IMG/VR virus record: IMGVR_UViG_3300031758_011559 | Coordinates: 1 to 21,904 of that record | Length of the DNA: 21,904 nucleotides | Origin: a virus | Direction: 5' to 3' (one strand) | Part shown: positions 4,839-20,236 of the stretch, one piece after another | Layout of the letters: each line of letters starts with the position of its first letter | How positions within the stretch are numbered: position 1 is the stretch's first letter | The notes under the pieces: generated by a model | Seen by the model: only the letters and a program-made list of their open reading frames with translations | What the model was told of the DNA's origin: nothing | Databases searched by the model: none | Translations under genes and position numbers: made by a program

Positions 4839-6999
4839 TCGTATCAGTGGTACGGTCGATCGAGTCTTCTTCACCAGCGCCAAGTTCTCCGCCGGCGCAC
4901 TTGTTCGCGACGACGGCGATCGTGTGCGGTTTCGCGGGCCATTCTGCGTGAGCGAAGGCGAACTGGTCACGCTCACAGGACACTGGAAAAGCGATCCCAA
5001 GTATGGACCGCAATTCGACGCCAAGAGCGTTAGCTACGATCTGCCGGAAACGCCTGAAGGCTTGGTGCAATACCTTGCGAAGCATCCAGCGTTTACTGGC
5101 ATCGGCGAAACCACGGCGCGGAAGATCGTCTCGTACGTTGCCAGCGCAGAGCATCTCGATCGCGTGATCCGCCAGGACATCGAGGAACTGCATCGCGCTT
5201 TGAGGATTCCCAAACGGACACTGAATTCACTGCGTGAAGCGTGGATTGCCAACAGTGATGAAAACGAAGTCAGAACGTACTTGGCCAGCTTCGGTCTTTC
5301 TCATAACCAGATGGAGACATTACTCGAGGAATTCGGCTCCTCGGTGGTTGGCGTTCTCAGAGCGAATCCCTATCTCATCATCCGCTACATCAAAGGCTAC
5401 GGCTTCAAGCGGGTAGACAAGATCGCGCGTTCGATGGGCATTCCCAAAGAGCACCCGGGCCGACTCGAAGCCGCCCTGTGTTATCTGGTTCGTGAAGAGG
5501 CGTCCGATGGTCATACATGGATCGCGCACGATGAGCTGATTCGCAAGGCGATCGATCTACTGTTGCTCGATTCACTCGACAGTGGCTCGATTATCGAGGC
5601 TGCCTTTCAGCGAGCGGTCGAGCAAGAGGAACTCGTTGTCGATGGCGATGCTGTTGCTCTTGCTCGATATGTTGAAGCGGAGCGACTGATCTATCAGTGC
5701 TTTGAATTGTACGGACAAGTCGTTGATCCGATCGGAATTGAACCAGCATACGGCACCGGGCTTAAGCGGGCTCAATTTGCCGCTTACGAAGCTGCGATGC
5801 GACACGCAATCGTTGTGATCTCCGGCGGAGCCGGTACCGGCAAGACGCATACGTTGGCCCGATTGGCGAAGACTTTTAAGGAAGCCAATCTCCGAATCGC
5901 ACTTTGCTCTCCAACTGGTAAGGCTGCCAAGCGGATCGAAGAGTCGCTGAAGGCTCTCGGACTCGATCTCGAAGCTAAGACGATCCACCGTCTACTTGCA
6001 TACAACGGACGGGAGTTCCGAAGGCAAAGTCTCTCGCCCCCAGATGACGAAGGCACACCCGGTATTCCGTCGGGTGATGGATTCGATGTCATCATTATTG
6101 ATGAGTTCTCTATGGTAGACGTGCCACTGATGGCAGAGCTACTACGTCGCATCGATCTCGACAAAACGCGATTGATTCTCGTTGGAGATCACAATCAGTT
6201 GCCTCCTGTCGGCGCTGGTAACGTCCTTCGTGACTGCATCAAACATAAGCTCGTGCCGACTTTCATTCTGGATGAAGTCGTACGCCAGGCCGGCGTTCTG
6301 AAGGTCAACAGCATGGCGATACTCTCGCAACGAGTTGTGCCAACGGCTGTTGGCGATCCAGCTTGGAGCGTCATCGATTCACTCAAAGAGCCGATGCAAA
6401 TTCAGGTCTACCTGCGTGACTTGGTTCTGAACCGCATTCCTAATCGGCTTGGTCTCGATCCAGTGAATGACGTACAGATCATCACTCCGACGCATCTGGG
6501 AAAACTCGGTACCAAAGCGATCAACGAGATGATGCAGTATCTGCTGCATGGCGAGGCTGATCGCAAGTTTGCAGTGGGCGACAAGGTCATTCAGACCTCC
6601 AACGATTATGACTTGGGAATTATGAATGGCACGATCGGTATCGTATCAGGGATCGAGATAGCGGATGGAACAAAGTACATTGTTGATTTCGATGGGGACG
6701 GTCGCCGGCGAATCCAAGATGATCAGATTCTAAATCTTCAGCTTGCCTACGCGTTGACTGCTCACAAGGCCCAAGGGAGTGAGTTTCCTTGCGTCGTTGT
6801 TCTCTGTCACAAGTCCCATTTCTTCGCCGATCGTAACTGGCTGTATACCGCGGTCACTCGCGCTTCCAAGTACTGCATCTTGGTCGGCGATCGATGGGGA
6901 CTCGGCAACGCTGTGAAGAAAAACAATGTTAGCCAGCGGCGAACGTTCCTAGATCGCTGGGCGACTGCGAATCTTGAATATTGGGAGGTGCTGCTTTGA
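4831..6999 (+). CDS. RecD2-like SF1B DNA helicase
   Basis: 722 aa. Residues 1-75 look like the OB-type N-terminal domain of RecD2 (FSAGALVRDDGDRVRFRGPF), then helix-hairpin-helix repeats at about 80-205 (FTGIGETTARKIV, YIKGYGFKRVDKIA). Helicase motifs follow: SGGAGTGKTH (331-340, Lys338), CSPTGKAAKR, KTIHRLL, IIIDEFSMVD (421-430), VGDHNQLPPVGAG (451-463), and near the end LTAHKAQGSEFP and YTAVTRASK. This is a 5'-3' DNA helicase of the RecD/TraA group, longer than phage Dda and without RecB/RecC partners. It sits between the ERCC4 nuclease and the primase, overlapping both, and probably unwinds forks or branched intermediates. Family call confident. Confidence 0.92.
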   Translation: MSNRISGTVDRVFFTSAKFSAGALVRDDGDRVRFRGPFCVSEGELVTLTGHWKSDPKYGPQFDAKSVSYDLPETPEGLVQYLAKHPAFTGIGETTARKIVSYVASAEHLDRVIRQDIEELHRALRIPKRTLNSLREAWIANSDENEVRTYLASFGLSHNQMETLLEEFGSSVVGVLRANPYLIIRYIKGYGFKRVDKIARSMGIPKEHPGRLEAALCYLVREEASDGHTWIAHDELIRKAIDLLLLDSLDSGSIIEAAFQRAVEQEELVVDGDAVALARYVEAERLIYQCFELYGQVVDPIGIEPAYGTGLKRAQFAAYEAAMRHAIVVISGGAGTGKTHTLARLAKTFKEANLRIALCSPTGKAAKRIEESLKALGLDLEAKTIHRLLAYNGREFRRQSLSPPDDEGTPGIPSGDGFDVIIIDEFSMVDVPLMAELLRRIDLDKTRLILVGDHNQLPPVGAGNVLRDCIKHKLVPTFILDEVVRQAGVLKVNSMAILSQRVVPTAVGDPAWSVIDSLKEPMQIQVYLRDLVLNRIPNRLGLDPVNDVQIITPTHLGKLGTKAINEMMQYLLHGEADRKFAVGDKVIQTSNDYDLGIMNGTIGIVSGIEIADGTKYIVDFDGDGRRRIQDDQILNLQLAYALTAHKAQGSEFPCVVVLCHKSHFFADRNWLYTAVTRASKYCILVGDRWGLGNAVKKNNVSQRRTFLDRWATANLEYWEVLL

Positions 7000-9359
7000 G
7001 CTCTGTACCTCAACCACCACTTGAAGCCATCGAGCGAAACTGCCCGAGTTGCATTCGCGATCGCAATCAGTGGGTTGCCTGGAAGTACGTCGAGCGTGGA
7101 GGCAAGCCGACCAAGGCTCCCATCAATCCGCACAACGGGTCGCTGGCTTCATCGACTGACGCCTCGACCTGGGGAACGTTCGCTGAAGCGATCGACGCGT
7201 GCCGGCGCAATAGTGCGTTAGCTGGCATCGGGTTTGTCTTCACCGCTGACGATCCGTACTGCGGTGTGGATCTCGATGACTCCGTCGATGAAGTAACTGG
7301 CCAGTTAAAGCCATGGGCTCAGCGGATCGTTGATCGCCTCGATAGCTACACGGAGATCAGTCCTTCGGGTTGGGGTTTGAAGGTATTCATCAAAGCCAAC
7401 AAGCCCGGCTCTCGTTGTCGTAAGGCATATGAAGATGGTGAAGTCGAGATCTATGATCGCGATCGCTTCTTCACGGTTACTGGGAATCGCCTCGCAAGTA
7501 TCCCAAGTGAAGTCAACATTCGCCAAGAGTCGCTCGAAGCTGTTTATTCGCATGTGTTTGGAAATGACGAACCAGGCACGAGCGCGACTCCATCCGCCAA
7601 TCGAGGGCCGCGGCCAAGCGATAGCGGCTCGGTTTCGCTGAGTGACGACGAGATCATCGAGCTTGCAGGTAAACGGCGCTCCACTGGCATGAAGTTTCAA
7701 GCTCTCTGGAATGGCGACTGGAACTCGTATTTCAATTCAGCTAGCGAGGCGGATTCATCCATCGTTTTCACCCTTGCCTACTTCACGAAGGATGCGGCTC
7801 AGATTGATCGCATCTTTCGACGCTCACAATTGATGCGAGACAAGTGGGATCAGAAGCATGGCAATGAAAGCTATGGACAACGAACGATCGTCAAAGCCCT
7901 GAGCAAGGTCACGAAACAGTACGAGCCGAAGAAAAAACGTCCTGCCGCTCCCAAGCAAGGAAGCCAGCCTCCAGCAAACCTTGGTTTTCCCAAGGCCGCC
8001 ATCGACTGGGATTTCAAAAGCGACCAGACCGAGAACGCGATGGCTGTGGAATTCATCGACGGCAACCAAGCCAAACTGCGTTATGTGCCATCGTGGAAGA
8101 AATGGCTCGCCTGGGACGGAAAGCGATGGAAGGTCGACATCGATCAAAGTCGAACGACTCGATTGGCGCGGAGGCTAGTCCGCAACTACTGGGACCGACT
8201 GCTGGCTATTCAAACAGAGAAGCAACAGAAGGAATGGGCCGACTTTTGTCGCTGGGCCAATCGCAAGACCACGATCGAAAACGTCGTATCTCTCGCTCGG
8301 TGTGATGCGAGGACCACTATTGATCACGAGCTGTTGAATCAGAACACTTACTTTCTGAATCTGCAAAACGGAACTCTTGATTTATCGACGTGGGAGTTTC
8401 GCGATCATCGCCAGACGGACTCGATCACGCAGATTGCAAACGTTGCGTACGATCCCAAAGCTCAATGTCCCAAGTGGCGAGCGTTTATCGATTTGATTTT
8501 CGGTAGCGACGATGAGGCCAAACGATACATTCAGGCTTTGCTGGGTTATTCGTGCTCTGGCGATGTCGGTGAGCACATTCTACCGATCTGCTATGGCTCG
8601 GGTGCCAACGGGAAATCAACCCTGTGGAATGCAATCGTCGAGTTGCTTGGCGATTACGCCATGCTGGCTCCCAGCAAACTCCTTCTGGGCACGACGAATG
8701 AACACGACACAGTCATTGCGTCGCTTTATCAGCGGCGTTTGGTGGCCATCAGCGAGCCCGACGAAGGTTCGAAGTTGCGTGAAGCCCGCGTCAAGGAACT
8801 AACTGGCGATGAGCAAATCACCGCTCGGCGGATGCGTGAGGATTACTGGAGCTTTCGGCGGACGCACAAGTTTTGGCTAAGTACGAACCATCTGCCTCAG
8901 ATCAATGGTACCGACGAAGGCATCTGGCGTCGCATCAAGCTGATTCCATTCCGGGTTGACCTCCGGAAGGTTACCGAGCCCATCCCTGACTACCACAAAC
9001 TGCTCGTAGGCGAGGAAGGCCCTGGGATCCTGAATTGGCTCCTGGATGGCTTCAAAGACTGGCGAGCCAACGGCTTCATCGAGCCGCAATCGGTCGTCAG
9101 CGAGACGCAAACCTATCGCGGCAAATCGGACGAGATCGGGCGCTTCATCGACGACTGTTGCAACGTCTCGCCCGAGCTAGTGGTCGTTTCCAGTGACCTC
9201 TATCACGCCTACAGGCAGTGGGGTGGCGAGCAGTCTCAGACCCGTTTTTCGACCGCGATGCAAGCGCGGTTTGTGTGCGCAAAACGCACCTTCGGACGCC
9301 TTCGAAACAAGCGTGTATTCGAGGGCATTTCAGTCGCAGAAATGGATGAAATTGAGTAA
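6996..9359 (+). CDS. Primase-polymerase fused to SF3 (P4/D5-type) replicative helicase
   Basis: 787 aa. I choose the TTG at 6996, which overlaps the previous stop (TTGA) and has GGGAGGTG 7 nt upstream. The N-terminal archaeo-eukaryotic primase-polymerase domain shows CGVDLDD (Asp92, Asp94), EISPSGWGLKVF (120-131) and EIYDRDRFFTVTG (151-163). In the second motif a Lys replaces the His of classical primases. A connecting domain lies at about 210-300 (DWNSYFNSASEADSSIVFTL), like that of phage NrS-1-type enzymes. The helicase has a D5-type N part, Walker A GSGANGKST (about 533-541) and sensor WLSTNHLPQ. It probably primes, unwinds and perhaps extends DNA at the phage origin, for which the palindromic region immediately downstream is the candidate. 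Confidence 0.9.
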   Translation: MSSVPQPPLEAIERNCPSCIRDRNQWVAWKYVERGGKPTKAPINPHNGSLASSTDASTWGTFAEAIDACRRNSALAGIGFVFTADDPYCGVDLDDSVDEVTGQLKPWAQRIVDRLDSYTEISPSGWGLKVFIKANKPGSRCRKAYEDGEVEIYDRDRFFTVTGNRLASIPSEVNIRQESLEAVYSHVFGNDEPGTSATPSANRGPRPSDSGSVSLSDDEIIELAGKRRSTGMKFQALWNGDWNSYFNSASEADSSIVFTLAYFTKDAAQIDRIFRRSQLMRDKWDQKHGNESYGQRTIVKALSKVTKQYEPKKKRPAAPKQGSQPPANLGFPKAAIDWDFKSDQTENAMAVEFIDGNQAKLRYVPSWKKWLAWDGKRWKVDIDQSRTTRLARRLVRNYWDRLLAIQTEKQQKEWADFCRWANRKTTIENVVSLARCDARTTIDHELLNQNTYFLNLQNGTLDLSTWEFRDHRQTDSITQIANVAYDPKAQCPKWRAFIDLIFGSDDEAKRYIQALLGYSCSGDVGEHILPICYGSGANGKSTLWNAIVELLGDYAMLAPSKLLLGTTNEHDTVIASLYQRRLVAISEPDEGSKLREARVKELTGDEQITARRMREDYWSFRRTHKFWLSTNHLPQINGTDEGIWRRIKLIPFRVDLRKVTEPIPDYHKLLVGEEGPGILNWLLDGFKDWRANGFIEPQSVVSETQTYRGKSDEIGRFIDDCCNVSPELVVVSSDLYHAYRQWGGEQSQTRFSTAMQARFVCAKRTFGRLRNKRVFEGISVAEMDEIE

Positions 9360-9403
9360 TCGAGCCATGTTCAAAAACCTTCAAAAACATTGGGATTTTC
9401 GCA

Positions 9404-9495
9404 AGTGCGCCGGGTTGCGCAGGGTTGTTTCATTATCTTCCATGCGCGCACGCGCATGGAAAACAACCAAAGTACCCAGCGCAACCCGGCGCACT
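9404..9495. repeat. 92-bp near-perfect long hairpin with three stacked stems
   Basis: Outer stem: AGTGCGCCGGGTTGCGC (9404-9420) and its exact complement at 9479-9495, 17 bp. Middle stem: GGTTGTTT (9423-9430) with AAACAACC (9461-9468). Inner stem: TTCCATGCGCG (9438-9448) with CGCGCATGGAA (9451-9461), sharing one base with the middle stem. About 35 pairs fall in 92 bp, with only short unpaired stretches. It could extrude as a cruciform in DNA or fold as a rod-like RNA. There is no T-run on either side, so it is not a simple terminator. Confidence 0.75.
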
Positions 9496-9503
9496 CGATG
9501 CAA

Positions 9504-9564
9504 TCGAAGCCTCTTGGTGACCAAGTGTTCGAGTCCTGTTCGGTCACCGAACGAGACGCTTCGA
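9504..9564. repeat. Three-way inverted-repeat structure with complementary loops
   Basis: TCGAAGC (9504-9510) and GCTTCGA (9558-9564) enclose two perfect palindromes: CTTGGTGACCAAG (9513-9525) and GTTCGGTCACCGAAC (9538-9552). As hairpins their three-base tips would be TGA and TCA, which are complementary to each other. Between them lies GTTCGAGTCC, which resembles a tRNA T-loop by sequence, but no T-stem forms. The two palindromes share the GGTGACC/GGTCACC core, suggesting two binding sites for one protein. Confidence 0.6.
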
Positions 9565-9867
9565 ACTGCCCTATGCAGCCCAGCCATCGACCCTGGCCTT
9601 CGCGTCGAAATTTCGCAACTCCAGCATGCGTTCGAGTGTCGCACGACGTTGCGCACTGACGCGAGATCTGTAGCAAGCCGCCCATCGCATCGACCATCGC
9701 ACTCATCGCAACAGTGGGCCAACGGTGGTCACACAACGCGTCTGCCACTATGGCACTCGCAAGCCCCAAACGATGGGTCCTCCCCCAAAAACCAACGCGT
9801 TCTTGGGCCGCGGGAACAGCCGCAAATGGACTCAGAGTTTGTTTCTGTAACGCATTGTCCTAAATCC

Positions 9868-10317
9868 ATGAATCACCAATTAAAAACATTCGAATTCGAG
9901 CTGCTTTGTAATGTGATGGCGGACATCGAAACATTCATCGAACTTAGCGACCGCCTGCAACGGAGCGACGAACGATTCGTGCGCGCGATTCGCGAAGTCG
10001 GTGTTCCATTTACGCCGTCTTCGTGGAAACGTGGAAGCATAACCTCCGCTCAGAAGATGGCTTACACGAGGGCAGTGCGACGGCTTGAACAATCAGGATT
10101 CATCCATCGAATCTCGGAATCCAAACGCGACCGAACAACCCATGTAAGACCAACAGAAACGGCGATTGCTTTCATGATTGATCAGTTGGGCTCGCAAATC
10201 GACTGCGATCAGCTTTTCGGTAGCATCAGCCGATTCGACTGGTGCGGCAACCTAGTGGGTAAATCTCAGCGGATGGCCGAACTAGAAAAGATCGAGGACA
10301 AAGTTCATGTCGAATAG
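9868..10317 (+). CDS. Probable winged-helix DNA-binding protein (149 aa)
   Basis: The ATG at 9868 begins MNHQLKTFEFELLCNVM; the frame is open far upstream, but that part covers the palindromic region and is not protein-like. Residues about 50-95 (SITSAQKMAYTRAVRRLEQSGFIHRISESKRDRTTHVRPTE) look like a recognition helix plus the beta wing of a MarR- or replication-initiator-type winged helix. No Shine-Dalgarno is evident. It lies between the candidate origin and an HNH gene and its stop overlaps the HNH start. It could regulate the operon or bind the adjacent palindromes as an initiator. The winged-helix call is from pattern only. Confidence 0.6.
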   Translation: MNHQLKTFEFELLCNVMADIETFIELSDRLQRSDERFVRAIREVGVPFTPSSWKRGSITSAQKMAYTRAVRRLEQSGFIHRISESKRDRTTHVRPTETAIAFMIDQLGSQIDCDQLFGSISRFDWCGNLVGKSQRMAELEKIEDKVHVE

Positions 10318-10879
10318 CGAAACCGAAGTCGAATCTTGGCTGCCAGTCCCCGGCTACGAAGAACTCTACGAAATCTCATCGATAGGACGATTGCGGCGAA
10401 AGAACGCTTCAAAGATGGCCCCAGCCGGCTATGTGATGAAGTGTCGTTTGGACGTGCATGGATATCCCAGATACTCGCTGAGCAAGTGTCGCAAGTACTG
10501 GACTGTTAAGGCTCATCGGCTGGTTGCCCTTGCTTTCCTTGGCCCTCCGCCATTTCCCAATGCCCAGGTCGCTCATTACGACGGAAACAAGCAAAACAAT
10601 CACGTAAGCAATCTTCGCTGGGCGACGCAAAAAGAAAACGCAGCGGACAACATTCGGCTCGGCGTCGTGCAAGGAGCACACCGAGGCGCTGAGCACCACT
10701 TAGCCAGTTTAACGACTGATACCGTCGTGCGCTTGAGATGTCTTGTCGAGTTTGGTTCAAGCATTGTTGACGCAGCAAAAGCCATTGGAGTCCACAAGAT
10801 GACCGCCTATGACGCGATCGTTGGAAAGACTTGGTCACACATTCCGTTTCCCCCTCCCGTTTCTCGAAGAAGGAAGTAA
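10307..10879 (+). CDS. NUMOD4/HNH homing-type endonuclease
   Basis: 190 aa. The N-terminal NUMOD4 motif is WLPVPGYEELYEISSIGRLRR (residues 11-31). The HNH core follows: AHRLVALAFLG, then VAHYDGNKQNNHVSNLRWATQKEN, with the conserved His and Asn residues. The C-terminal part (SSIVDAAKAIGVHKMTAYDAIVGKTW) is a helix-turn-helix used for DNA binding. These are free-standing homing endonucleases common in phages; they spread by cutting sites in related phages. It overlaps the winged-helix gene by 11 nt and precedes the methylase by 6 bp, so it may have invaded between a replication regulator and the methylase. No intron or intein is visible. Confidence 0.88.
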   Translation: MSNSETEVESWLPVPGYEELYEISSIGRLRRKNASKMAPAGYVMKCRLDVHGYPRYSLSKCRKYWTVKAHRLVALAFLGPPPFPNAQVAHYDGNKQNNHVSNLRWATQKENAADNIRLGVVQGAHRGAEHHLASLTTDTVVRLRCLVEFGSSIVDAAKAIGVHKMTAYDAIVGKTWSHIPFPPPVSRRRK

Positions 10880-14132: not shown

Positions 14133-14225
14133 CTTCGTCTCTCCAATTCTGTGTTCGTGGTTGGCTGCCATCGTCAGGCCGATCGAACCACCGATCGACT
14201 ACGCGCGTCCGTGCTGCGTTTCGGC

Positions 14226-14540
14226 TTATTGACCAAAGACCAAGTCCGACAATCCCTCGCAAAGGAAGTCGACCACCACTTGGACTTCCGTGTTGACCGC
14301 CGGCACATCCAAACCACGGTCGAAGTTGAACATTACTTTCCGGTCGGAAAGTCGCTGAATCCAAAGCTTCGAAATTTTGCTTTGATTCAGTTCGAAGGAT
14401 TCTTGGTCGGCGTGGTCGGCGAAGACCAAGGCGTCGAAGCGGTATTCATCGTTGATCTTGCCTTGTACCCAAGATCCGCCAGCGGTGCGGTTGCGGTTGC
14501 TGATCTTGGTGATTGTGAGGTCGAGGTCGTGTTCGGTCAT
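14226..14540 (-). CDS. Small uncharacterised protein (104 aa)
   Basis: MTEHDLDLTITKISNRNRTAGGSWVQGKINDEYRFDALVFADHADQESFELNQSKISKLWIQRLSDRKVMFNFDRGLDVP, then a strand and helix. It reads as an alpha/beta fold with many short strands; no family recognised. I take the ATG at 14540 with GGAGACGAA upstream, not the longer frame through the leader. Leader repeat copy 1 begins 41 bp upstream. Its stop is followed on the minus strand by a CGATCG hairpin in the leader of the HARE-HTH gene. Confidence 0.65.
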   Translation of the reverse strand: MTEHDLDLTITKISNRNRTAGGSWVQGKINDEYRFDALVFADHADQESFELNQSKISKLWIQRLSDRKVMFNFDRGLDVPAVNTEVQVVVDFLCEGLSDLVFGQ

Positions 14541-14580
14541 TTCGTCTCCGTTGTTGGGTTGGTGAATCGTTTTCGCGTTA

Positions 14581-14618
14581 ACACACATGAGCCATGCGGT
14601 TCAAAACGCATCAAGCCG
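14581..14618 (-). promoter_or_regulatory. Array leader repeat, copy 1
   Basis: On the plus strand it starts ACACACATGAGCCATGCG (shared by all six intact copies) and ends CAAGCCG, with ATGCG/CGCAT arms around GTTCAAAA in between. On the gene strand it lies 41 bp upstream of the 14540 start, followed by the partly shared CGCGAAAACGATTC and the ribosome site. Promoter or operator role inferred from position. Confidence 0.7.
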
Positions 14619-14621
14619 GAT

Positions 14622-14870
14622 TCAGAAGGATTTCGGAATCTTTTCTTTGGTGCATACCTGTGTTCGGAAATGTTGGGCGAGCTTCGCAGCCGTGGCTTGC
14701 ACATCGGCCAGCTCGTCAAAGAAATGTCTCAGGGTTGTTGGGTCGGCAGCGGCAAGGATCGGCATCTCCTCGATCGCTGCGTACAGGTCGCTGACGGACT
14801 GGAGCGCTCGTCGGTGTGCGCTGAGGAACTGGGCCGAGGTCAGGCGTGGTCGGTTTGTCATGGTTGGCAT
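14622..14870 (-). CDS. Small helical protein (82 aa)
   Basis: MPTMTNRPRLTSAQFLSAHRRALQSVSDLYAAIEEMPILAAADPTTLRHFFDELADVQATAAKLAQHFRTQVCTKEKIPKSF is predicted to be nearly all helical. The start is the ATG at 14870, with AGGAG 7 nt upstream; upstream codons are the leader repeat itself. The gene ends only 4 bp from copy 1 of the repeat, so its 3' end (a GATTC/GAATC hairpin) is fused to the next unit's leader. No family recognised. Confidence 0.65.
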   Translation of the reverse strand: MPTMTNRPRLTSAQFLSAHRRALQSVSDLYAAIEEMPILAAADPTTLRHFFDELADVQATAAKLAQHFRTQVCTKEKIPKSF

Positions 14871-14915
14871 CTTGTTTCTCCTAAGCTGGTTTGGACTGAA
14901 ATTGCATTTGCGATG

Positions 14916-14953
14916 ACACACATGAGCCATGCGGTTCAAACCGCATCAAGCCG
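14916..14953 (-). promoter_or_regulatory. Array leader repeat, copy 2
   Basis: Same 38-bp layout. This copy has a perfect palindrome ATGCGGTT-CA-AACCGCAT at 14929-14946. It lies 46 bp upstream of the 14870 start. It is the only intact copy not in the common reading phase of the others. Confidence 0.7.
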
Positions 14954-14955
14954 AA

Positions 14956-14993
14956 GGGGAAAAGATTCTGAAGGTTTTTCAGAATCTTTCCCC
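14956..14993 (-). terminator. Strong hairpin after the 15015 gene
   Basis: GGGGAAAAGATTCTGAA (14956-14972) pairs with TTCAGAATCTTTCCCC (14978-14993), 16 pairs with one bulge and a 5-nt loop. It lies between the stop of the 15015 gene and leader repeat copy 2. No clean T-run follows on the gene strand (TTCGGCTTG), so it may act as a stability element as much as a terminator. Confidence 0.6.
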
Positions 14994-15014
14994 AGGCGCA
15001 TCGCTGTGTTGCAA

Positions 15015-15284
15015 TCAGCTATTTCGGCATGTGTCCCATGCTCGTTTGCTGCCGTAACAAATCTGACCACCCTCGACGATGTAAACGATGTTTTCGTCGG
15101 CAACGTCTTGATCGTCGTCGGCTTCGTCGTCGTCGTTTGTGTCGTTCATCTCTTGGCCCGAGGTAACGCCACAAATGCGGTTCTCAAATGGCCAGTTCTG
15201 TTGGGTCATCAACCGGACCTCGGCATCGCCGCCATGTTCATCGCGGTAGTCGTTGAGGATTTCGATCAGGGTGTCGAGATTCAT
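15015..15284 (-). CDS. Small acidic protein (89 aa)
   Basis: MNLDTLIEILNDYRDEHGGDAEVRLMTQQNWPFENRICGVTSGQEM, then an acidic run (NDTNDDDEADDDQDVADEN) and a beta end VYIVEGGQICYGSKRAWD. The Asp/Glu-rich middle separates two parts that together look like one small alpha/beta domain with an insertion. The start ATG at 15284 has GGAG 9 nt upstream. The acidity could suit a DNA-mimic or chaperone role, but nothing shows this. Leader repeat copy 3 begins 44 bp upstream. Confidence 0.7.
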   Translation of the reverse strand: MNLDTLIEILNDYRDEHGGDAEVRLMTQQNWPFENRICGVTSGQEMNDTNDDDEADDDQDVADENIVYIVEGGQICYGSKRAWDTCRNS

Positions 15285-15327
15285 GTTCTTGTCTCCGTTG
15301 TTGTGAATGAAAAATCGTTTTCCGATA

Positions 15328-15365
15328 ACACACATGAGCCATGCGGTTCGAACTGCAGCAAGCCG
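15328..15365 (-). promoter_or_regulatory. Array leader repeat, copy 3
   Basis: Same invariant start ACACACATGAGCCATGCG and CAAGCCG end; the central dyad is TGC.GTTCGAAC.GCA. It lies 44 bp upstream of the 15284 start. To its right (upstream on the gene strand) are ACATG and GCATGC motifs at about 15382-15412. Confidence 0.7.
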
Positions 15366-15520
15366 ATTTCAGCAGCTTTTCCACATGTTTTTTCATGTTT
15401 GTTTGCATGCCACACATTGCCCCACGTTGGCGTGTGTTGCACTTGTTTCCATGTGGGGTCGTCAGTCGCATCCGAGACAAAGGACGCGACGGTGGGCGAC
15501 TGTCGCGACCGAATGAGAAT

Positions 15521-15544
15521 ACGCCGCGCATCCGTTCGCGGCGT
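15521..15544 (-). terminator. Hairpin terminator after the 15570 gene
   Basis: ACGCCGCG (15521-15528) pairs perfectly with CGCGGCGT (15537-15544) around an 8-nt loop, 25 bp beyond the stop at 15570. On the gene strand ATTCTC follows, a weak T-containing tail. The rest of 15366-15569 holds a CCCCAC/GTGGGG inverted repeat near 15420-15456 and no gene. Confidence 0.6.
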
Positions 15545-15569
15545 CCGTGGCATTCCGTTGTGCGGTGGT

Positions 15570-15827
15570 TTAGAGGATCGCGCCGAGCCGACTTCGCTTC
15601 ATTGCGTCGATGGCTTCGATGGCGTAAAGGTGTTCGACGAGCAAAGGGCCTGCGGACTCTTGTTGGTTGGCGTCGGCAATCTCAAGGGCGTCTGCCAAGG
15701 TTCGCAATCCCTCGACCGCGTTGTAGTACGCTTCTCGAATCTCTTGTGCTTGGTGTGCTTCCATCGCTTTGAAAATCACGCGAAGGGCTGCGTCGGTTGC
15801 TTTGTGTTCGTTACTGTTCTTGGCCAT
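15570..15827 (-). CDS. Small helical protein (85 aa)
   Basis: MAKNSNEHKATDAALRVIFKAMEAHQAQEIREAYYNAVEGLRTLADALEIADANQQESAGPLLVEHLYAIEAIDAMKRSRLGAIL. It is almost entirely predicted helix with heptad-like hydrophobic spacing, perhaps a helical bundle or coiled coil. GGAGACAAGACC precedes the ATG. Leader repeat copy 4 begins 47 bp upstream and a terminator follows, so this is a single-gene unit. No family recognised. Confidence 0.7.
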   Translation of the reverse strand: MAKNSNEHKATDAALRVIFKAMEAHQAQEIREAYYNAVEGLRTLADALEIADANQQESAGPLLVEHLYAIEAIDAMKRSRLGAIL

Positions 15828-15873
15828 GGTCTTGTCTCCGTTTCGGAAAAGGGTTCGAATCGTTTATGCGATA

Positions 15874-15911
15874 ACACACATGAGCCATGCGGCTCAAAAC
15901 GCATCAAGCCG
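15874..15911 (-). promoter_or_regulatory. Array leader repeat, copy 4
   Basis: Identical 38-bp layout with ATGCG/CGCAT arms and one substitution (GGCTC for GGTTC). It lies 47 bp upstream of the 15827 start, with AAACGATTC following on the gene strand as in copies 1, 3 and 5. Confidence 0.7.
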
Positions 15912-15938
15912 AGCTTGCAAACATTTCAAAAAGAATTT

Positions 15939-15964
15939 GCCGGCGGCTCCTTTGGGCCGCCGGC
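15939..15964 (-). terminator. GC-rich terminator after the 15981 gene
   Basis: GCCGGCGGC (15939-15947) pairs perfectly with GCCGCCGGC (15956-15964) around an 8-nt loop; on the gene strand it is followed by AAATTCTTTTTG. It lies 16 bp beyond the stop at 15981 and before leader repeat copy 4. Confidence 0.75.
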
Positions 15965-15980
15965 CATTCCATCTCTCTCG

Positions 15981-16271
15981 CTAGTCGTTCTTCAAAAAGA
16001 ACTTGAGCATTGCCTGCTGCTCGTAGAGTTTGGTGAGATCTGCTTTAGCTTCACGCGCGTTGCGGAGATCGCATTCAGCGAACTCAACCCAGGACATGCT
16101 GCAGGGTTGGTTGGCCAGCATGGCCTCTGTGTCGTGAACCGCGTTTTGGGCCCGTCGCAACATCTCTTGTGCGACACCGGCCAAGCGCCGTTGCGCGTCG
16201 GGGATCATCCATTCGAGGCGTCGCAGTTGTGCTTGAATCGCTTGCTCGACGTTGTTGGTTGTTTCGCTCAT
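15981..16271 (-). CDS. Small helical protein (96 aa)
   Basis: MSETTNNVEQAIQAQLRRLEWMIPDAQRRLAGVAQEMLRRAQNAVHDTEAMLANQPCSMSWVEFAECDLRNAREAKADLTKLYEQQAMLKFFLKND. Long amphipathic helices suggest a coiled coil or helical hairpin. GGAGAAAAAACC precedes the ATG at 16271. It is a single-gene unit with its own leader repeat (copy 5, 47 bp upstream) and terminator. No family recognised. Confidence 0.7.
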   Translation of the reverse strand: MSETTNNVEQAIQAQLRRLEWMIPDAQRRLAGVAQEMLRRAQNAVHDTEAMLANQPCSMSWVEFAECDLRNAREAKADLTKLYEQQAMLKFFLKND

Positions 16272-16317
16272 GGTTTTTTCTCCGTTTCGGAAAGGGAATG
16301 GAATCGTTTACGTGATG

Positions 16318-16355
16318 ACACACATGAGCCATGCGGTTCGAATAACCTCAAGCCG
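16318..16355 (-). promoter_or_regulatory. Array leader repeat, copy 5
   Basis: Same layout; the central dyad has changed to GGTT/AACC around CGAAT. It lies 47 bp upstream of the 16271 start. To its right GATTCC-AAAA-GGAATC (16368-16383) forms a small hairpin. Confidence 0.7.
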
Positions 16356-16521
16356 AGCCTTCGAGGATTCCAAAAGGAATCTGAATGTTTTTTAGGATCG
16401 CGTCAGTTCGCACAAAACGCGCCGCGTTGTGTTGCGGTTCGGGTTTGGCCACTATTAGTGACATACACGATTCGACCCCACGGTGACGTAAAATTGGCCC
16501 CACGTCGCCAAACGTGTGAAA

Positions 16522-16541
16522 GCCGAACCTCCGTGTTCGGC
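16522..16541 (-). terminator. Terminator after the amidoligase gene
   Basis: GCCGAAC (16522-16528) pairs with GTTCGGC (16535-16541) around a 6-nt loop, followed on the gene strand by TTTC. It lies 18 bp beyond the stop at 16560. Confidence 0.65.
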
Positions 16542-16559
16542 GTTTCGTTTGGTTGTGGG

Positions 16560-17417
16560 CTATGCCGCGCGGTCGTATTTGCGGGCGAGGTCGAGGAGCT
16601 TGGTTTTGATCGTTTTCCATTCCGGTTTGGTTTCGCTGGCGATCTCTCCGTAGACCTTGTCGCGAAGGGCACCCTTGTACCAACCCTTGGTCCATCCGAG
16701 TCGGTAGAACAATCGGTTGAGTTCCGTCTCGCCAAGGCCGGCACCAGGGCGATCCCAGCAACTCTTGGTGCCTTCCTTTTTGATGTAGTCCCATTCGCTG
16801 CAGCGTTTGGTATTGAGGGCGAGTTCAACCAAACCCAAAACCATCATCAGGTATCCGACCACCTTGGTCTTGTTGAGCGTTCCGCCGAAGGCTCGGAACT
16901 CGATTCGGTTCTTGCCGCGGGTCAGGTGGGTCAGGTTCAGCAGGTGGTAGCGATCCGATTCGCATCGGCTCTTGGCGTTGTCTTTGTTTCCGTATTGTTT
17001 GATTCGCTTGGCGTACATCATTTGTTCGCGTTTGCGGGTTCCGGTCGAAGCGTAAATCGCTCGTTCGTGGTTGCCGACCAAGGAAATCAATCTTGCCAAA
17101 GCGGCCGCGTCTCCATTCCAGCTAACCGTTATGTGAAGGCCGCAGCTCGAATTTACTTGGCCACCTCGTGCGTTGATTTGGTCGATCGCGTTTTCGATCT
17201 GTCGTACGCCATCAACCCCTTTGAGTATTGGGCTTACAAACTCGCATCCTTTGCGTGCGTTGTTTTCGGGGCGGATGCTCCCGTCGCGTTCTGCTTTCCA
17301 TCCGGTTGGCAGCCAAGGTACTTGGTATCCGCTGTGGTAGGGTCCGATCGGTGTGTTGTCGGTACCGGGGAGGGTGGTTTCGAATTCGATTCCGAAGGCG
17401 ATTTCGTTTGCGTTCAT
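16560..17417 (-). CDS. Putative amidoligase (COOH-NH2 ligase family)
   Basis: 285 aa from the ATG at 17417, with AAGGAACAG upstream; the frame runs on through the leader repeat but that part is not conserved in character. Motifs of the Amidoligase_2 family (glutamine-synthetase/GCS-like fold) are present: FGIEFET (8-14), AERDGSI (42-48), GCEFVSP (57-63), CGLHITV (92-98) and RIEFRAFGGTLN (171-182). The acidic and basic residues of these motifs bind metal and ATP in the family, which joins a carboxyl and an amine, with suggested roles in cell-wall or peptide modification. It is the largest gene of the array and the first one transcribed on this strand, preceded by leader repeat copy 6. The substrate is unknown. 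Confidence 0.85.
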   Translation of the reverse strand: MNANEIAFGIEFETTLPGTDNTPIGPYHSGYQVPWLPTGWKAERDGSIRPENNARKGCEFVSPILKGVDGVRQIENAIDQINARGGQVNSSCGLHITVSWNGDAAALARLISLVGNHERAIYASTGTRKREQMMYAKRIKQYGNKDNAKSRCESDRYHLLNLTHLTRGKNRIEFRAFGGTLNKTKVVGYLMMVLGLVELALNTKRCSEWDYIKKEGTKSCWDRPGAGLGETELNRLFYRLGWTKGWYKGALRDKVYGEIASETKPEWKTIKTKLLDLARKYDRAA

Positions 17418-17475
17418 CGTTCTGTTCCTTTGTGGTTCGAGGTGTGTTTTGCGTCGCGTTTTCTGCGTCGCGATG

Positions 17476-17513
17476 ACACACATGAGCCATGCGTTTCGAG
17501 GAACATCCAGGCG
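17476..17513 (-). promoter_or_regulatory. Array leader repeat, copy 6
   Basis: Invariant ACACACATGAGCCATGCG start; the dyad and tail have diverged (GAACATCCAGGCG in place of GCATCAAGCCG). It lies 59 bp upstream of the amidoligase start and faces the divergent packaging operon. Confidence 0.65.
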
Positions 17514-17519
17514 ATTCCC

Positions 17520-17657
17520 GCATGTTTTTCCAGTAATTCTGCATGTTTCCTGGGAGGCCACCGGTGCCCCAACATTACGCGACGGTCGCGTCCAAACATG
17601 CTCCGCATAACGAGGCGAACATGCGGCTAAGACGCGACAGTGCGCAATCGGTGCCCC
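17520..17657. promoter_or_regulatory. Divergent control region before the packaging operon
   Basis: Between the minus-strand array and the plus-strand head genes lie four GCATGT/ACATGC sites (17520-17525, 17541-17546, 17596-17601, 17619-17624), a perfect 15-bp palindrome ACGCGAC-G-GTCGCGT (17577-17591), and CGGTGCCCC twice (17562-17570, 17649-17657). No gene fits here. The dyads suggest regulator binding sites between divergent promoters, but no promoter hexamers stand out. Confidence 0.45.
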
Positions 17658-20158: not shown

Positions 20159-20197
20159 CTCTCCAAGATTGAATCAAAAAAAATCTTCTGGTTCGTC

Positions 20198-20236
20198 CGT
20201 CAATCTACATGTGAACCGGGTATTCCTACAGATAGA
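20198..20236 (+). promoter_or_regulatory. Candidate phage promoter, copy 2 of a 39-bp motif
   Basis: CGTCAAT (20198-20204), 10 bp, ACCGGGTATTCC (20215-20226), one base, ACAGATAGA (20228-20236). The 22-bp right block differs from that at 1246-1267 by one base. It lies 34 bp before the start at 20271, in the 112-bp gap after the terminase gene, which also holds a weak AAGATT/AATCTT hairpin. It could start the head-gene transcript. Confidence 0.6.

Follow-up and report, generated by a model that had tools for sequence, protein, structure and literature searches.

Among the closest described counterparts of the element reported here are the origins of the pRN1 family of Sulfolobus plasmids. In pRN1, a stem-loop of about 100 nt located 54 bp behind a PrimPol-SF3-winged-helix gene is required for replication, and it restores replication of a construct without it when moved elsewhere (PMC4234260). 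Replication also depends on the loop, and the effect of a mutation in the stem was reversed by restored symmetry (PMC4234260). The 2014 pRN1 study extended the stem-loop to BIP-1 and BPP-1, saw no iterons in pRN1 or in BPP-1-type phages, and named 'not yet identified sequence motifs' (PMC4234260). The SF3 helicases SV40 large T antigen and papilloma E1 use two pairs of short recognition sequences, one hexamer per pair (PMC5295021), and SCCmec Cch2, like SaPI Rep, binds iterons behind its own gene via its C-terminal domain (PMC7581432). The NrS-1 PrimPol recognises short template motifs and has the recognition sequence TTTGGTTA (PMC8718748).

The window, which is the whole stretch of DNA analysed (21,904 nucleotides), is a 21.9-kb virus fragment from IMG/VR with a lambda-type terminase and portal (Pfam). 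Related PrimPol genes were found mainly in planctomycete assemblies (Pirellula and others), and therefore the host is most likely a planctomycete. A preliminary description had reported a palindrome with a perfect 17-bp outer stem at 9404-9495, adjoining a primase-helicase gene. The palindrome was confirmed at exactly this position, beginning 45 nt past the stop codon of a gene for a 792-aa PrimPol-HBD-D5/SF3 helicase. We propose, with a probability of roughly 0.88, that it is the phage's origin of DNA replication; its position, mirrored iterons, conservation and co-segregation with the type of the initiator's C-terminus are established from the sequence. The preliminary description had suggested an origin cruciform or a primer-initiation structure. 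The origin part of that interpretation held up, given the mirrored iterons, the fixed place and the origins of relatives, whereas a cruciform or a primer-initiation structure was not demonstrated: the arms consist of tandem iterons in mirror arrangement, conservation of the middle stem is lacking, most relatives have an alternating pyrimidine-purine tract in place of the inner stem, and no specific priming site was established. The features of the locus are as follows.

6981-9359, + strand: initiator gene, with PrimPol (N-terminal), NrS-1-like HBD, D5_N, SF3-type helicase (DUF5906), Pox_D5 and a C-terminal winged helix (Pfam, relatives).
9132-9335, + strand: codons of the predicted C-terminal winged helix (about residues 718-785), the likely iteron-binding domain (AlphaFold2, Foldseek).
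9373-9402, + strand: conserved 5' block AAAAACCTTCAAAAACATTGGGATTTTCGC, present among clade members as well as in L138, L139 and L213, helicase-swapped loci that share PrimPol and HBD.
9404-9495, no strand assigned: the whole palindromic element, the proposed replication origin.
9406-9415, + strand: iteron 1, TGCGCCGGGT, outer left.
9416-9425, + strand: iteron 2, TGCGCAGGGT, inner left, in tandem with iteron 1 (9/10 identical; composition-shuffle p 0.0025).
9426-9473, no strand assigned: core of 48 nt flanked by the mirrored iterons (TGTTTCATTATCTTCC ... GGAAAACAACCAAAGT), with a near-invariant CRTTATCT stretch in the alignment.
9441-9458, no strand assigned: 18-nt perfectly alternating pyrimidine-purine tract CATGCGCGCACGCGCATG, at the centre of the inner stem.
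9464-9471, - strand: TTTGGTTG, matching the NrS-1 PrimPol recognition sequence at 7/8 positions, a weak lead.
9474-9483, - strand: iteron 2', reading TGCGCTGGGT on the minus strand.
9484-9493, - strand: iteron 1', reading TGCGCCGGGT on the minus strand.

Comparison with the pRN1 family showed that both have an element of about 100 nt directly 3' of a PrimPol-HBD-SF3-winged-helix gene, arms of about 20 bp around a core of 50-60 nt (22-nt arms and a 48-nt core here, 21 and 58 in pRN1), and an arm symmetry and layout that are kept while the sequence changes. pRN1 and pHEN7, and weakly pRN2, also carry two tandem 9-mers per arm, as in the window's 10-mers: the pRN1 arm contains TGTCCA twice with 9-bp spacing (p 0.009), the pHEN7 arm has the tandem 9-mers GTCACCACT GTCACAACT, and the pRN2 arm has a weaker GGAC pair (p 0.17). 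No comparable element was found in the stretches of pIT3 and pXZ1 examined. The present element differs from that of pRN1 in belonging to a bacteriophage, in its 10-bp iteron spacing and in its long alternating pyrimidine-purine core tract, which is absent from pRN1 and pRN2. The putative origin of BPP-1/BIP-1 (L328; PMC4234260) is likewise a mirrored element behind the primase, with perfect tandem 9-mers (TTGCCTCGT twice) in each arm and a 14-nt alternating tract in the core, although it lies about 470 nt behind the stop and its iteron sequence is unrelated. These comparisons suggest the same mirrored-iteron build for the 'stem-loop' origins described in pRN plasmids and in phages of the BPP-1 type.

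In Lactobacillus phage A2 (AJ251789), the annotated rep_origin extends over the 3' end of the gene for a primase that is homologous to the present one (33% identical), and iterons ACGGGAGGAT lie in both orientations around a core in the same place behind the primase; it differs in its wider spacing, more numerous copies and AT-rich core, and in having no long perfect palindrome. The likeness to SV40 and E1, two pairs of short sites, is an analogy only, since these have another origin-binding domain, much closer pairs and melting regions that flank the sites instead of lying between them. SaPI Rep and Cch2 are other helicase proteins, without a PrimPol fusion. Beyond the known kind of origin, the features added here are, as a general observation, the iterons in the arms and the alternating tract in the core.

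The arms of the palindrome (9404-9448 and 9451-9495) are 45 nt each and 84% complementary. The perfect outer stem (9404-9420/9479-9495) is the longest perfect stem in the window, and in 100 dinucleotide-preserving shuffles of the window the longest perfect stem did not exceed 14 bp. Folding of the element gave -67 kcal/mol as RNA (z -9.3) and a z of -9.6 as DNA, and the claim that the palindrome lies beyond chance was thus substantiated. It had also been called triple-stacked. All three stems are present, the middle one of 8 bp at 9423-9430/9461-9468 and the inner one of 11 bp at 9438-9448/9451-9461, with base 9461 belonging to both; however, the alignments showed no conservation of the middle stem among relatives and the inner stem is not general, so that 'triple-stacked' fits the window sequence alone and not a design conserved across relatives. 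In one clade (CATATGCGTGCGCGCATG) the pairing of the inner stem is lost and strict pyrimidine-purine alternation is retained. GC skew along the window gave no usable origin signal, because the genes switch strand. Two other candidates were rejected: an attC-like reading, in which the arm boxes proved on inspection to be wrongly oriented, and a tRNA-like 3' half at about 9515-9545, for which ARAGORN was negative.

The element was found in the same place in 20/20 loci in which a closely related primase is followed by sequence past its stop codon, several of these contigs being near-identical and about a dozen distinct; its absence from relatives with the same primase, which would have spoken against the preliminary description, was thus not observed. 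A 15-mer arm pattern gave mostly unrelated contigs among the matches listed, and the two-arm pattern alone was specific. In 14 aligned copies, 93% of the pair cells were standard pairs and seven pairs were changed on both sides, and the covariation score exceeded all 500 shuffles and all slid controls. Covariation alone does not distinguish RNA pairing from mirrored protein sites. On the + strand, G-T cells slightly outnumbered A-C cells (24 vs 9), a weak hint of a folded + strand.

This hint and the strong fold would also suit a structured RNA cotranscribed with the primase mRNA, either a regulatory RNA or a terminator, but we regard such an RNA as very improbable. An intrinsic terminator has a G+C-rich hairpin followed by a T run, and no T tract follows the outer stem past 9495; terminator-like matches occurred solely within the left arm and at chance level. 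The mirrored DNA repeats lie about one helical turn apart with a unit that varies by lineage, and the annotated origin of A2 occupies the same place. The Rfam 15 covariance models gave no match over the element. An RNA element was also tried as a candidate with a covariance model, and rejected; the model recovered the same origin family together with weak matches to other primase-downstream elements.

Each arm in the window consists of two tandem 10-bp units, TGCGCCGGGT TGCGCAGGGT, mirrored about the core, so that a short sequence occurs four times in the element, as two opposed pairs. Like the iterons of SF3-initiator origins, these repeats are short, direct and helically phased, and form groups that face each other; across elements the repeats in the arms are spaced 9-10 bp, about one helical turn. 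A detector requiring two tandem and two mirrored units was used to scan the 600-nt regions behind primases, with windows from the same loci as controls. Mirrored tandem iterons were detected downstream of the primase in 19/59 non-redundant loci and in 0/2,729 control windows; as the detector was devised after examples had been seen, the 19/59 is descriptive and the zero in the controls is the informative figure. The remaining 40 loci lacked the strict pattern; some of them, such as A2, failed through its strictness alone, and others, for example haloarchaeal loci, showed nothing of the kind. In distant relatives the layout is kept and the unit changed, being AGGGTCACAT in L145, GCGAGGTTA in the L138 group, GTGACGGGTT in L214 and ACCAGCGCGA in L271, with further units elsewhere. 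Many extra GCGAGGTTA iterons, in both orientations, were also observed past the primase stop, ahead of the mirrored element, in L139 (10400-11070) and L138 (10580-10890).

The C-terminus of the initiator was modelled with AlphaFold2, and the result showed secondary-structure elements ordered H-E-H-H-E-E, as in a winged helix, with a core pLDDT of about 90. The best Foldseek matches were the RFX winged-helix DNA-binding domain and ASFV PrimPol (E 5e-3 to 1e-2). By this model and by analogy, the winged helix is likely to bind the iterons. Within the window clade the helicases are 90-99% identical, yet residues 696-786 sort into three types, and the iteron type tracks the C-terminal type and not the PrimPol type, a comparison that leaves out L272, whose primase frame is broken after residue 330 in our translation. 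Thus L262 resembles L131 in its PrimPol but the window in both C-terminus and origin, and the PrimPol of L125 and L260 is similar to that of L126, whereas their C-terminus and origin are similar to those of L124. Both helicase and C-terminus have been replaced in L138-L140 (no D5_N, DUF5906 or Pox_D5), as have the iterons, there GCGAGGTTA, whereas the 5' block AAAACATTGG is retained; GCGAGGTTA iterons with a different helicase and C-terminus also occur in relatives of these loci. Since the C-terminus adjoins the origin, co-segregation of the types could reflect linkage without selection. A separate observation is that L133, L134 and L135 have a PrimPol unlike that of the window (the match starts from residue 142-169) and agree with it in HBD, helicase, C-terminus and origin.

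The outer units were symmetric at 10/10 positions in each of the 11 members of the clade that were compared, whereas tandem copies agreed at 78% on average; for the inner units, symmetry was barely above tandem agreement. The outer unit is therefore under an extra constraint, or a homogenisation of symmetry, beyond iteron identity, and its perfect symmetry exceeds what iteron binding alone demands. For this reason an extruded hairpin, cruciform or single-stranded, which the primase-helicase would recognise by shape rather than by arm sequence, a model put forward for pRN1, was kept as a serious rival or complement of the iteron model, although we consider it unlikely. The covariation across relatives, the rescue of the pRN1 stem mutation by restored symmetry (PMC4234260) and the slight G-T excess agree with such a hairpin, as does the core of the window clade, which folds better than shuffles that preserve pyrimidine-purine order. 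However, the arms are significantly tandem-repeated in most lineages (composition shuffles), the cores of most other lineages fold no better than chance, the inner stem is disrupted in the CATATGCGTG clade, and arm sequence tracks the C-terminal DNA-binding type.

Once alternation was accounted for, unusually good folding of the core was confined to L235 and some members of the window clade. The inner stem is therefore better read as an alternating tract. The CATGCGCGCACGCGCATG tract ranks first in its locus (p 0.0012; composition-shuffle p 0.0005). Alternating pyrimidine-purine runs of 13-34 nt were above composition expectation (p ≤0.007) in the cores of 17/20 phage elements, which are not all independent (four belong to the window clade and three to the GCGAGGTTA group), and mostly ranked highest within their own locus. 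The tract is absent from L214, L235, L278 and the pRN plasmids. In the elements that have it, it may act in origin opening as an easily distorted or melted segment.

It is quite unlikely that the element serves solely for primer initiation, like the ssi sites of RSF1010, while replication truly starts elsewhere. The reading of short template motifs by NrS-1 PrimPol (PMC8718748) and the presence of TTTGGTTG/A on the minus strand of the core are consistent with it, and exact TTTGGTTA is present in the L125 and L135 elements. However, five TTTGGTTR sites occur in the window, no motif of this type was seen in the L138/L139 elements, and mirrored iterons suit a double-strand initiator. As a priming site, TTTGGTTA was given little weight on these two counts, its lack of uniqueness in the window and its absence from L138/L139. 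Being palindromic and intergenic, the element could also be viewed as a mobile REP- or MITE-like repeat inserted behind the primase, but this is hardly credible: the record holds a single copy, the place behind the primase is fixed in all relatives with no empty site seen, and a core-motif scan of viral contigs gave the same phage group alone, primase-linked or cut at a contig edge.

If the palindrome is the origin, the C-terminal winged helix would bind the iterons, as relatives and the literature suggest, and the two opposed iteron pairs would seat two helicase hexamers face to face. The facing hexamers would melt the core, where the alternating tract may yield easily, the PrimPol/HBD part would prime both strands, and forks would depart in both directions. 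More broadly, and only tentatively, PrimPol-SF3 replicons from archaeal plasmids to phages might have one origin design, mirrored tandem iterons round a core, in which the C-terminal domain and origin are swapped together as a cassette that sets specificity; the core of most phage members would be a long alternating pyrimidine-purine tract, a torsion-sensitive, possibly Z-forming opener replacing the usual AT-rich one.

A concrete origin is thereby proposed for a group of uncultured planctomycete phages, together with a candidate for the sequence signal that the initiator recognises at 'stem-loop' origins of the pRN1/BPP-1 type. Arm symmetry against arm sequence offers a simple and decisive mutational test, for which the mosaic C-terminus/origin cassettes are natural swaps. 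The alternating tract is GC-rich, although origins usually have an AT-rich opening element at this point, and is a testable feature.

Several other features of the window were observed. A second conserved noncoding block (GATGGGTCCTCCCC ... GGGCCGCGGGAACAGCC ... AGTTTGTTT) at about 9740-9845 is common to the helicase-swapped relatives and L276, the L130 contig ends within it, and it is possibly a cos site. Between the origin and a ParB-methyltransferase gene, a MarR-like ORF and a NUMOD4/HNH endonuclease occupy 9868-10879; in L123, L124, L132 and L139 the methyltransferase-like frame comes directly, without them. A type II hammerhead ribozyme above the Rfam cutoff lies at 14159-14226 on the minus strand between two minus-strand genes, and this ribozyme also occurs in the related loci L123, L134, L143, L170 and L163. 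At 14573-17528, a repeat of about 60 nt (ACACACATGAGCCATGCGGTTC...) occurs six times near the starts of small minus-strand genes and resembles a shared leader or promoter. Finally, a 40-nt direct repeat (83% identical) is present at 1228-1267 and 20197-20236, 19 kb apart.
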